From Candidatus Latescibacterota bacterium (GTDB lineage Bacteria; JAAXHH01; JACQVL01), in assembly GCA_016209865.1 (NCBI GenBank), contig JACQVL010000161.1, positions 1 through 7,859 of the forward strand: a stretch of DNA of 7,859 nucleotides, written 5' to 3'. Position numbers and translations under genes: made by a program. Shown here one piece after another: positions 1,572 through 5,463 of this stretch; within the stretch, counting starts at the first letter, position 1; every line of letters begins with the position of its first letter. The notes beneath the pieces were generated by a model. The model worked only from the letters and a program-made list of their open reading frames with translations, made no database searches and was not told the origin of the DNA.

Positions 1572-3845
1572 TTGCTCTCGCGTGGTGACATCAACCGGGC
1601 GTTACGCGCGTTCACCCTGGCCAGCGGCCTGTGGGGCGCGTGGGGTCAGATGGTCGGCATCGGGACGGCCGTGTTCACCGGGTATGCGTTGTCGACCGGC
1701 GCGGATGCCTCCGACATCGCGTTCTTTACCTCAGTCGCCTACCTCTTAGCGCCCATCCAGCTCATCTCGTCCGTCTTCAGTCATCGCATCACGAACAAAA
1801 AACGCTTCGTGGTCGGCGGCGGGTTCTTCGAGGCGCTGTTTCGGGGATCGCTGGTGGTCATCCCCCTGGTCTTCGCTCGCTCGCACTGGTCCGCGATGTT
1901 CCTGCTGTTGCTGGCGCTGGGCCTCATCTGCGGCACGATGTACTCCCCGTTCTACAGCTCCTGGTTAGCTACCACCATCCCGGCCAACGTCCGCGCCCGG
2001 TTTACCAGCCGGCAGACGATCGTGAGCAGTCTGGCGGGGATGCTCGCCGGGATCGTGGCGGGCGGGTTCGTCGACCGGTTCGCTGAAGTGGAGAAACACA
2101 CCCGGTTTGCCCTGGTGTTTCTGGGAGCGACGTTCCTCGGATGGGCGGGATACGCGGCGGTCAGCCGGGCGCCGTTCCCCCGGCAGACCGAGCCGCCCGG
2201 TCGCAACAACCTCCGGGGACTGCTGCAACCGTTCACAGACCGCAATTTTCGGCATGCCCTCCTGTTCTACGCGTCGTGGAACTTTGCGATCGGCCTGTCC
2301 GGCCCCCTCTTCAGCGTGTTCATGTTAGAGCGATTGCAGCTCAGCTACACGGCGATCTCTCTGCTCAACGCGCTGTCGATGGTCACCACCGTTATCGGGT
2401 ATCAGGTCTGGGGCGGGCTGATCGACCGGTTTGGGAGCAAGCCGGTGCTCCAGATTCTGCTCATTCCGAGCGCCCTCTACCCGATCCTCTGGGCGCTGGC
2501 CAGTCCCGGCGCGTACGTCCTGGTGTCCGTGGCGATGGCGCTCACCGGGTTCATCATCTCCGGGATCACGATCGGGATCACCCCGTTGCTCTACGGTCTG
2601 CTTCCCCAGGATGACCAGAACCAGAAAGTGACCTACCTCGCCTCCTGGTCGACCTCCGTCAACCTGATCTACGCGCTCGGCCCGCTCCTGGGCAGTCTGC
2701 TGGTGCGGTCATTCAAGGGGGTGGAGATCGGGGTGATGGGGTTCTCCATCGGGAATCTCCAGATTCTCTTCCTGCTCAGCGCCGCCGCGCGGGTGATCCC
2801 GACCATCCTGCTCCGGTCCGTGGTCGAGACCCGTGCCATCTCCTCGTGGCGTCTGCTGTCTCAGATCTTCCAGGGGAACCTCTTGAGTTATGCCTACCAT
2901 AACGTGATCTACAGTCTGGCCACCGAAGAGGGCCGTCGGGCGAGAGCGATGTTCGCGCTGGGGAAATCCGGCAACCCGCTGGCGCTCGAACAACTCGTCC
3001 ATGCCCTGGCGGATGCCAGTCCCAAAGTCCGCAGTCAGGCGGCCCGCGCGTTGGGGGAGACGGGGGCCGAGGAGGCGGCCGATGTGTTGATCAAGGAACT
3101 GCTCAACGGGGCGTCGGACATCCGGAGTGAAGCGGCCGAGGCGCTCGGACGGCTGAAACATCCCCGCGCGATCGACCCGCTGATCGAGGCGTTAGACGAT
3201 GAAGACCCCCGGGTCCGGATCAGCGCGATCCGCGGGCTGGCGGAGATCGGGGGAGAAGACGTGCAGGAACTGTTGTTCTGGTATTTTTCCAGCAGCTTTG
3301 AGCCGCGCACTTTCCCGACGTTAGTGGAGGCGCTGGCCAACATGGAAGACCAGCGGGTCGTCAAGCAGGCTCTGCAGCACCTCGACCGATTCTCGTCCCC
3401 GGCCATCCGCCTGCAACTGCTCAACAGCGTCTGCCGGGCGTTGGGCGCGGAAGGACAGTTCTACCGGCTGCTCTCTCAGGAAGACGACAAACGGTACGAT
3501 GAGCTGGGGCGATTGTTGAAGCGGACGGCCTCGACGTTGACGACGACCTCGGCCCTGGACGGCACGACGCGCCAGGACCTCAATCGCCTGTTTCGAGACC
3601 TCATCCGCCACTACGAACAGAACAATATCGTGGGGATGATGGAGCAGGGGAGCGCGATCATCAACCTCATCCGGGATGGCCTGGTCGTCAAGGATCAGGG
3701 CGCGTACGAGACCCTGTCGATCTACCTGGTCATCCTGGCGATGAATACCTTCATGACCAGTGACGCCTGCCGGGACCTGCCCGTGGCCCAGGAAATCTTC
3801 CTGACGGTGTGTCTGAGCCGGATCGCGGAGTTGCTGCGGGCGTAG
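1572..3845 (+). CDS. MFS transporter fused to C-terminal HEAT repeats
   Basis: This 757-residue protein joins a full membrane transporter to a soluble helical tail. Residues about 12-415 hold some 12 hydrophobic segments in two sets of six, separated by a polar loop (about 200-225). The motif GGLIDRFGSK (281-290), after the eighth segment, matches MFS motif A (GxxxDRxGxK). The matching loop in the first half (SHRITNKKR, 70-78) is degenerate. Residues about 468-560 contain three HEAT repeats of about 31 residues, each ending in an AxxALGxxG-like helix (e.g. ARALGETG, AEALGRLKH, IRGLAEIG). Residues 560-757 are also mostly helical, first HEAT-like and then unrecognised, with no clear further membrane segment. 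Ordinary MFS proteins are 400-450 residues, so the tail adds about 300. HEAT repeats bind proteins, so the tail may regulate or dock the transporter at the cytoplasmic face; this is inferred. The substrate is unknown. The start is TTG, because an in-frame stop lies just upstream and GGAG sits eight bases before it. Confidence 0.88.
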   Translation: MLSRGDINRALRAFTLASGLWGAWGQMVGIGTAVFTGYALSTGADASDIAFFTSVAYLLAPIQLISSVFSHRITNKKRFVVGGGFFEALFRGSLVVIPLVFARSHWSAMFLLLLALGLICGTMYSPFYSSWLATTIPANVRARFTSRQTIVSSLAGMLAGIVAGGFVDRFAEVEKHTRFALVFLGATFLGWAGYAAVSRAPFPRQTEPPGRNNLRGLLQPFTDRNFRHALLFYASWNFAIGLSGPLFSVFMLERLQLSYTAISLLNALSMVTTVIGYQVWGGLIDRFGSKPVLQILLIPSALYPILWALASPGAYVLVSVAMALTGFIISGITIGITPLLYGLLPQDDQNQKVTYLASWSTSVNLIYALGPLLGSLLVRSFKGVEIGVMGFSIGNLQILFLLSAAARVIPTILLRSVVETRAISSWRLLSQIFQGNLLSYAYHNVIYSLATEEGRRARAMFALGKSGNPLALEQLVHALADASPKVRSQAARALGETGAEEAADVLIKELLNGASDIRSEAAEALGRLKHPRAIDPLIEALDDEDPRVRISAIRGLAEIGGEDVQELLFWYFSSSFEPRTFPTLVEALANMEDQRVVKQALQHLDRFSSPAIRLQLLNSVCRALGAEGQFYRLLSQEDDKRYDELGRLLKRTASTLTTTSALDGTTRQDLNRLFRDLIRHYEQNNIVGMMEQGSAIINLIRDGLVVKDQGAYETLSIYLVILAMNTFMTSDACRDLPVAQEIFLTVCLSRIAELLRA

Positions 3846-3877
3846 CCCAGGGCAACTCGCCGGGAGTCGCCCCTACG
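3841..3877 (-). repeat. Hairpin repeat copy 1, between the converging gene ends
   Basis: The arms at 3850-3858 (GGGCAACTC) and 3864-3872 (GAGTCGCCC) pair over eight of nine positions around a five-base loop. In the - strand transcript the odd position becomes a G-U pair, so the stem is complete in that orientation. Outside it, CGTAG (3841-3845) and CTACG (3873-3877) are also inverted, with four unpaired bases (CCCA) on the left. The left CGTAG contains the TAG stop of the MFS-HEAT gene, and the right arm contains the TAG stop of the PhyH gene on the - strand. There is no T-run on either side. The hairpin may protect mRNA ends or help termination from both sides. It shares the head G-TAG-GGGCGA with copy 2. 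Confidence 0.75.
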
Positions 3878-4601
3878 GCCCGTCGATCAGACGTCGTAGC
3901 GCGGGCAGGTCTCGCTTGTAGTCGGCCAGGCCGGGACTGTCGCTCTCGTTATCCTCAGGGTGCGGCTTAGGATTGTGCCAACCCTGGTAATGCCCGCCCC
4001 AGAGATGGCGGAGGCCCGGCCGGGTGCCGCGCTTGGCGGAGTGCCACAGGGCGGTGTCGAAGATGACCACTGAGCCGGGCGGGGCAGAGACCGCGACCTG
4101 GCCTGGCCAGTCGGTCCCCCTGTCGTCGAGTCGGGGGTTCGTGGAGTCGTTCAGGCCGCGCGGCAACACGATCAACGGGCCGATCTCAGGGGATAAGCCA
4201 TCAGTATACACGTTACCAAGAACCCGTTCAGGGTTCTCCCGGTTCAACCCGCCTGGCGGGACCTCCCAGTGATAGTGATGATGCCAGCCGGAGATGTAGG
4301 GCTTCGTCTGTTCATTCGAGACCGCCCCGCCGCTGTGAGCTAAGCGGACGTCATCCTGCAGCACGGCGGCGAGCGCCTCGATCACCTCGGCTTTGCCGAA
4401 GAACGGCCCCATCTCAGGGCACAGCCGCAGTAACGGATGGAACACGAGACGAGGCGCGTCGGCTGAAGGCCCGCCCCGCTGCGCGCACAGCCGGTCGATG
4501 AGGATGCGAATCTCCTGGCACTCGTCTTCGTCGTAGACCGCTTCGAGCACGCAATACCCGAGGTCACGAACCTCACGGGCCTTGGATGTCATGTCGATCA
4601 T
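3873..4601 (-). CDS. Phytanoyl-CoA dioxygenase (PhyH) family protein
   Basis: This 242-residue protein belongs to the Fe(II)/2-oxoglutarate-dependent oxygenases of the PhyH group, which hydroxylate small molecules in the cytoplasm; the substrate is unknown. Family features are the N-terminal region LGYCVLEAVYDEDEC (14-28), GWHHHYHWE (105-113), the central strand GPLIVLPRGLN (141-151), the turn PPGSVVIFDTALWHSA (174-189) and a downstream arginine at Arg198. His187 is the likely distal iron ligand, and Arg198 would bind 2-oxoglutarate. The usual proximal HxD is not seen: the site reads His107-His108-His109, with His111-Trp-Glu113 as a possible HxE. The ATG at 4601 is chosen because AAGGA lies eight bases before it. 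An in-frame ATG at 4673 would give 24 more residues, but these would be encoded by a hairpin repeat and would overlap the gene before. It is the last gene of the - strand operon. Confidence 0.85.
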   Translation of the reverse strand: MIDMTSKAREVRDLGYCVLEAVYDEDECQEIRILIDRLCAQRGGPSADAPRLVFHPLLRLCPEMGPFFGKAEVIEALAAVLQDDVRLAHSGGAVSNEQTKPYISGWHHHYHWEVPPGGLNRENPERVLGNVYTDGLSPEIGPLIVLPRGLNDSTNPRLDDRGTDWPGQVAVSAPPGSVVIFDTALWHSAKRGTRPGLRHLWGGHYQGWHNPKPHPEDNESDSPGLADYKRDLPALRRLIDGP

Positions 4602-4609
4602 GGGGGAGA

Positions 4610-4614
4610 TCCTT
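4610..4614 (-). promoter_or_regulatory. Ribosome binding site deciding the PhyH start
   Basis: AAGGA on the - strand ends eight bases before the ATG at 4601. It favours this start over the longer in-frame ATG at 4673, which lies inside the end of the preceding gene. Confidence 0.65.
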
Positions 4615-4628
4615 CTCAGATGACGGTT

Positions 4629-4661
4629 AAAAGGGCGAAGCAGTGCTTCGCCCCTACTTTT
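4629..4661 (-). repeat. Hairpin repeat copy 2, between CBM9-like and PhyH genes
   Basis: The arms GGGCGAAGC (4633-4641) and GCTTCGCCC (4645-4653) form a perfect nine-base stem with a three-base loop. AAAA (4629-4632) and TTTT (4658-4661) are also inverted outside it, with four unpaired bases (CTAC) on one side. On the - strand the element starts with G-TAG-GGGCGA, and that TAG is the stop codon of the CBM9-like gene. The - strand stem is followed directly by TTTT, so it resembles a weak intrinsic terminator and could reduce transcription into the PhyH gene 28 bases further on. It could also simply be an inserted repeat. The same head is seen in copy 1. Confidence 0.8.
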
Positions 4662-5463
4662 CCACAAATTCATCCGTCCCGGTGCCCACGATCTTCTCCG
4701 AAAACTGGACGTAGCCGTACATCTCGGGGACGTGCATACTCCCGATTCCCTGGCACGTCCACGTCCAGTCTAAGCAGAGCGTTCGTTCCCGGTCCCGGTG
4801 GAGACGGGACATATTCACCCGCCACTGGTCGCCGTGCTTCGGCGGGCAGCTCACCCCGATGCACTGCGGGGCCATGCTCTCCCAGTCGAACGCGATCTCG
4901 ACCGTCCATCCTTTGTCCACGATCCACGGCGCGTTCAACGTGCCGTCTACGTGGACCGCGGTCTTCATCCCCTCCCAGTTCCAGTCGTCGCGGGGGTTGC
5001 CCCGCCGGTGGTGCGGGTAGTCGAGCAGGAGGTCCCAGACACAGTTGAGGGCGTTGATCTCGAGTTCCATGTAGTTCATCGCATCCCCGTCCGGGTCGAC
5101 GAACACCTCGAAATCCGTGTCCGACCCGCAGATCTGGGAGTCCCGCTTCGTCAAGGTGCCCCAGACGTCGGGGTCTTCCAGGTCCGCGCCGACGTAGAAG
5201 TACTGGTCGTCCCAGAGCATCTTCGCCCGCGTGGCGAAATGCGGAATTTTCTTCAGATCCTCGAGATGGCCGAACGAGTCGGTCCACGGCGCTTTCTTCC
5301 ACGATGGCTCGTCTAAGCGGCCGTCGACCACGATCGGGCCGCTTGCGCGGTAGCAGATGTACTGTTTCGGCTTGATCGTCTCCAGGGCTTTGAAGATCTT
5401 CTCCACGCGTTCCGGTTCTTCCAGCATGATCTGTCTGATCTGTTCATCGGGGAGTGTTCGCAC
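4654..5463 (-). CDS. CBM9-like carbohydrate-binding protein
   Basis: This 269-residue protein matches the CBM9-like (DOMON-related) beta-sandwich group, which binds sugars or sugar ends. The fold begins after residue 40 with VDGRLDEPSW (46-55), then WDDQYFYVGADLEDPDVW (84-101), DTDFEVFVDPDGDAMNY (115-131) with the family's DPDGD...NYxExEIN pattern, GWTVEIAFDW (185-194), QWRVNMSR (213-220) and a closing MHVPEMYGYVQF (243-254). The first 36 or so residues are a charged, probably helical extension. There is no signal peptide and no catalytic domain, so it probably stays in the cytoplasm, unlike many CBM9 modules that sit on secreted enzymes. The GTG start is preceded by GGAGG at a spacing of eight bases. 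The stop codon lies in hairpin repeat copy 2. What it binds is unknown; its neighbours suggest a sugar or glycoside. Confidence 0.8.
   Translation of the reverse strand: MRTLPDEQIRQIMLEEPERVEKIFKALETIKPKQYICYRASGPIVVDGRLDEPSWKKAPWTDSFGHLEDLKKIPHFATRAKMLWDDQYFYVGADLEDPDVWGTLTKRDSQICGSDTDFEVFVDPDGDAMNYMELEINALNCVWDLLLDYPHHRRGNPRDDWNWEGMKTAVHVDGTLNAPWIVDKGWTVEIAFDWESMAPQCIGVSCPPKHGDQWRVNMSRLHRDRERTLCLDWTWTCQGIGSMHVPEMYGYVQFSEKIVGTGTDEFVEK

Follow-up and report, generated by a model that had tools for sequence, protein, structure and literature searches.

The two hairpins that follow the CBM9-like and PhyH-like genes in the stretch of DNA analysed here (the window, 7,859 nt of a Candidatus Latescibacterota contig) are copies of a lineage-specific family of GTAG-tagged REPs. 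In the explanation that we favour, with a probability of roughly 0.8, the tag is the guide of a RAYT, copies that lie in frame at gene ends have been kept, and a MITE-like element accounts for part of the spread. The finding is not new in kind, because TAG-supplying GTAG tags were already reported by Di Nocera et al. in 2013. What is added is a REP family with many copies, from a lineage that has not been cultured, and numbers for the 2013 remark, with about one-sixth of the exact tags serving as a working stop, nearly always in the TAG frame. It also places REP-supplied stops at the natural ends of genes as central as infA, and shows which null matters, namely the other non-coding GTAGs, against which there is no excess.

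Two tagged hairpins at gene ends in the window

Both elements are read on the − strand, and in both the stem begins on the base directly after GTAG, as the first-pass annotation had described. In REP 1, the tag lies at 4654–4657 and its TAG (4654–4656) terminates the CBM9-like gene (4654–5463, − strand; Pfam CBM9_1, E = 1e-9). The hairpin, GGGCGAAGC-ACT-GCTTCGCCC, runs from base 4653 to 4633 with nine perfect pairs (folding z = −4.0 in a 51-nt context), and TTTT comes next, at 4629–4632; the hairpin lies within a 52-bp gap (4602–4653) with co-directional genes on either side. In REP 2, the tag lies at 3873–3876 and its TAG (3873–3875) is the stop codon of the PhyH-like dioxygenase gene (3873–4601, − strand; Pfam PhyH, E = 7e-7). 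The hairpin, GGGCGACTC-CCGGC-GAGTTGCCC, occupies 3850–3872, starting at base 3872, and has nine pairs counting one G-T (folding z = −2.4 for the 36-nt element). Both TAGs are thus real stops, as had been claimed. An Rfam scan of the window gave no match.

Two features of this region had been missed. The tail of REP 2, TGGG-CTAC on the − strand (3842–3849), reads GTAG on the + strand (3842–3845), where these are the last bases of a convergent gene for an MFS transporter with HEAT repeats (1572–3845, + strand), whose stop is the TAG at 3843–3845. REP 2 (35 bp) therefore fills the gap between the two convergent genes and holds the stops of both. Judging by dimers such as that at L039 (GCCCTGGGCGACC...CCCCTAC), the tail may be the distal tag of what was once a head-to-head dimer and has since decayed, losing its second hairpin. 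The start of the PhyH gene is probably at 4601 rather than 4673, because an SD-like AGAAGGA lies upstream of it and the alignment with a paralogue begins there.

A genome-wide palindrome family and a MITE-like element

The suggestion that the two hairpins belong to a family of short mobile palindromes was borne out by the genome. The exact tag sequence, GTAGGGGCGA, has 152 matches in the 3.75-Mb genome (70 and 82 on the two strands) versus 36 (18 and 18) for the reversed string, and most exact-tag copies are perfect hairpins. In a scan of all tetranucleotides, a hairpin directly followed GTAG 44 times per 1000, against a median of 7.5; GTAG ranked second as a hairpin foot, and the only higher one, TAGG, represents the same elements shifted by one base. 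A literature text search for GTAGGGGCG returned only primers and unrelated DNA among the matches listed.

For detailed reading, we used 80 stretches of the genome (818 kb; loci L031–L110) with 107 exact tags. The units are 21–30 nt long; their outer stem (GGGCG/CGCCC) is fixed, whereas the inner stem co-varies. When units were picked solely by the outer stem (GTAGGGGCG...CGCCC), so that the inner pairs were unselected, stem pairs 6, 7, and 8 were complementary in 29, 30, and 27 of 32 distinct sequences, compared with 17.9, 9.4, and 8.2 after shuffling, and all four Watson–Crick pair types were present at positions 7 and 8. The stems accordingly vary while pairing is kept, as the two window copies had suggested. 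Many units form head-to-head dimers with the tags pointing outward (GTAG...CTAC), and because these dimers, tagged at both ends, recur in unrelated flanks, the tag belongs to the element. The genes around the units run in the same direction in 49 cases, diverge in 19, and converge in three, the others lying at contig ends, with dimers counted twice. A second type of palindrome, with long tagged ends (GTAGGGGCGAAGCATTCGC...) and a variable interior of 20–50 nt, was also seen (L037, 3293–3360; L038, 1683–1752; L244, 1497–1570), and palindromes with these ends are abundant in a distant genome, G075.

Part of the family resides in a MITE-like element of 125 bp without coding capacity, in which 28-bp terminal inverted repeats (86% complementary; end sequence CTRATGARWTTTGA) enclose a central head-to-head REP dimer. 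About 40 copies, some of them partial, occur in the genome (e.g., L057, 10151–10275), and the element is absent from 14 order relatives. In its unit length, terminal inverted repeats, copy number, and lack of coding capacity it resembles MITEs; it differs from them in its REP-dimer centre and in that no target duplication was recognised by eye at its copies. At one locus (L076, about 10237–10361), a longer inverted repeat (gcttcgtcgttt / aaacgacgaagc) has a 125-bp copy between its arms, which looks like an insertion into a hairpin. The element is a possible second driver of REP spread. A more specific scenario, which we put forward tentatively as the less probable course of events, is that, in a lineage lacking a RAYT of its own, a 125-bp MITE took up a REP dimer at its centre and the transposase of that MITE then spread it. 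If this were true, the stop-supplying REPs would be partly second-hand, and REPs could change their driver.

Stop-codon supply, protein ends, and alternative readings

Genes were called with a simple codon-usage caller built for this analysis (704 genes, 87% coding). Across the 818 kb, 18 of the 107 exact tags provide the stop of a called gene (16 of 105 when the window is excluded), in agreement with the earlier idea of an element that brings an in-frame stop to gene ends. Of the remaining tags, 85 are intergenic, many of them at a large distance from the nearest upstream gene end on the same strand, two lie in same-strand coding sequence in another frame, and two are antisense. The TAG frame was used 16 times and another same-strand frame twice, window excluded, where a third would be expected if the frames were equally tolerated. 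GGGC came next after the stop at 23 of 86 GTAG stops and at six of 578 other stops (p = 6e-17), a difference that is inflated because the contigs were mostly chosen for the motif; in unselected contigs, the counts were two of 16 and one of 134 (Fisher p = 0.03).

Whether the TAG is a stop more often than chance, as the first-pass annotation had asked, depends on the null. REP tags serve as stops far above random intergenic placement, but show no excess over other non-coding GTAGs, with stop fractions of 11/98 for hairpin units and 75/473 for the others, so that the counts call for no mechanism that seeks out stops. A special property of targeting stop codons was set aside on the same grounds. 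Supplying stop codons looks like a by-product that is tolerated, and the simplest view of the element at the stop is that it is passive; by analogy with E. coli REPs near stops, an effect on translation is possible. In the replication sets G062 and G075, one of 19 and two of 10 units supplied stops; few units passed the filter because the tags there are mostly in other or longer palindromes. In loci L031–L110, C precedes only two of 143 TAG stops, even though it occupies 43% of third codon positions, indicating avoidance of CTAG.

The genes stopped by REPs include those that we take to be infA (IF-1), folD, and genes for a transketolase, a Gfo/Idh-type protein, and an amidase-like protein. In the proteins compared, the ends differ from those of homologues by 0–3 residues. 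The infA product (72 amino acids) ends at the identical residue to that of its order relatives, which mostly use a TAA stop (AAG-TAA); relative to the order relatives, the Gfo/Idh protein is one residue longer and the transketolase one residue shorter, and the CBM9 protein is about two or three residues shorter than its closest orthologue. Because the protein ends match those of homologues, the elements sit at natural gene ends.

A different account of these stops is that insertion takes place immediately 3′ of a GTAG (or GTAA) present beforehand, so that the stop predates the hairpin and GTAG stops are common targets; IS200/IS605 elements do insert 3′ of a fixed tetranucleotide. It is consistent with the paralogues in the same genome, as the PhyH paralogue (C319) shares the GTAG stop but no GGGCGA hairpin comes after it, and the CBM9 paralogue (C84) shares the GTAG stop with a REP of a different stem type behind it. 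The exactly conserved length of infA, with AAG-TAA in most relatives, and the resemblance between the stop fractions of REP tags and other non-coding GTAGs fit it as well. We nevertheless consider it unlikely, since dimers bear a tag on each outer end in numerous unrelated settings, the MITE-like unit has its tags inside, and the final Gfo/Idh codons ahead of the tag also differ from those of all relatives. Furthermore, GTAG has been shown experimentally to be the recognition motif within the REP and the probable guide for TnpA-REP, which cleaves at CT (PMC8266576).

The hairpins might instead be selected for regulation, with a REP at the stop stalling terminating ribosomes, shielding the mRNA 3′ end, or terminating transcription; end protection or attenuation had been proposed for the two window copies. 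The stem starts 0 nt after the stop codon, the genes on either side of REP 1 are co-directional and TTTT comes after its hairpin, and, according to a study as cited in PMC12306157, translation in E. coli is lowered by REPs that lie no more than 15 nt from a stop. However, a T-run follows only one of 89 hairpins, which is REP 1 itself, so attenuation or termination as a general role is not supported and terminator function is rejected as a family trait. In addition, the orthologue of the CBM9 gene in G011 (~80% identical) lacks the element, and 85 of the 107 tags are intergenic, many of them remote from an upstream same-strand gene end. We regard selection for regulation as distinctly improbable. 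Chance, with two unrelated terminator-like hairpins after TAG stops in a GC-rich genome that yielded 12,449 hairpins in the scan, is refuted by the copy number (152 versus 36), and the co-varying stems and GTAG foot enrichment likewise leave it a negligible probability. The first-pass annotation had named two copies only, no regard to stops, and no compensation in the stem as observations that would speak against its proposal, and none of these was found.

Proposed RAYT association and relation to known REPs

Under the preferred reading of a GTAG-tagged REP family, GTAG would be the recognition or guide tetranucleotide at the hairpin foot, and a RAYT-type HUH transposase (TnpA-REP) would process the hairpin as single-stranded DNA. 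Copies landing in frame at the extreme 3′ end of a gene would be kept, because the TAG ends the protein near its natural length, and copies in other frames or deeper inside genes would be lost; we infer that such selection produced the frame bias. Some of the spread probably took place without a RAYT, by the copying of about 40 head-to-head dimers inside the MITE-like element.

The family resembles the GTAG REPs that Di Nocera et al. (PMC3733652) described from several phyla, occurring as dimers and located behind genes; one sentence of that paper states that GTAG REP termini often give a TAG stop to flanking ORFs. Shared with that superfamily are GTAG at the foot of a 6–13-bp stem, a short loop, alternative complementary stem residues, head-to-head dimers, a mostly extragenic location, and the supply of TAG stops, a likeness of description rather than of exact consensus. 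It differs in that no RAYT was found here and many dimers are embedded in the 125-bp element. With the REPtrons (TnpA-REP, or RAYT) of group 3, such as S. maltophilia Sm, whose REPs are regular palindromes with GTAG directly before them (PMC8266576), the family shares a perfect palindrome directly after GTAG and, in other lineages, an adjoining HUH transposase; unlike a REPtron, the present genome (83% complete assembly) has no detected RAYT gene flanked by REPs. The REP/BIME units of E. coli are likewise paired and inverted, lie 3′ of genes, and carry GTAG/CTAC tags, but their stems require an internal bulge for activity (PMC8266576), whereas those observed here are regular.

The RAYT or TnpA-like transposase that the first-pass annotation had proposed to look for was not detected in the genome itself with PF01797 or NF047646, in an assembly that is 83% complete and whose contigs often end at these repeats; no genome of the same genus or family was found among the relatives. 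RAYT genes of other lineages do have GTAGGGG[C/T]G palindromes flanking them or within them (genomes G011, G024, G039, and G070; loci L116, L129, L130, L131, L135, L164, and L183). G011 belongs to the same order as the source genome and has the highest tag count (24) among the order relatives. G013 and G047 had modest GTAGGGGCGA counts and no RAYT match, and the tag-rich G075 had only two weaker RAYT matches, with no adjoining GTAGGGG palindrome in the loci retrieved. Among order relatives, L113 (22–1893, 623 amino acids) and L115 (550–1896, 448 amino acids) contain ORFs with a C-terminal Y1_Tnp domain and an unrelated N-terminal part. In the RAYT ORFs of G024, G011, and G070 (L131, L164, L173, L183, L129, and L135), REP palindromes lie inside the transposase reading frame itself, recurrently in the segment that links the HUH motif to the catalytic tyrosine region (for example, VGAGFKPAPT in L164).
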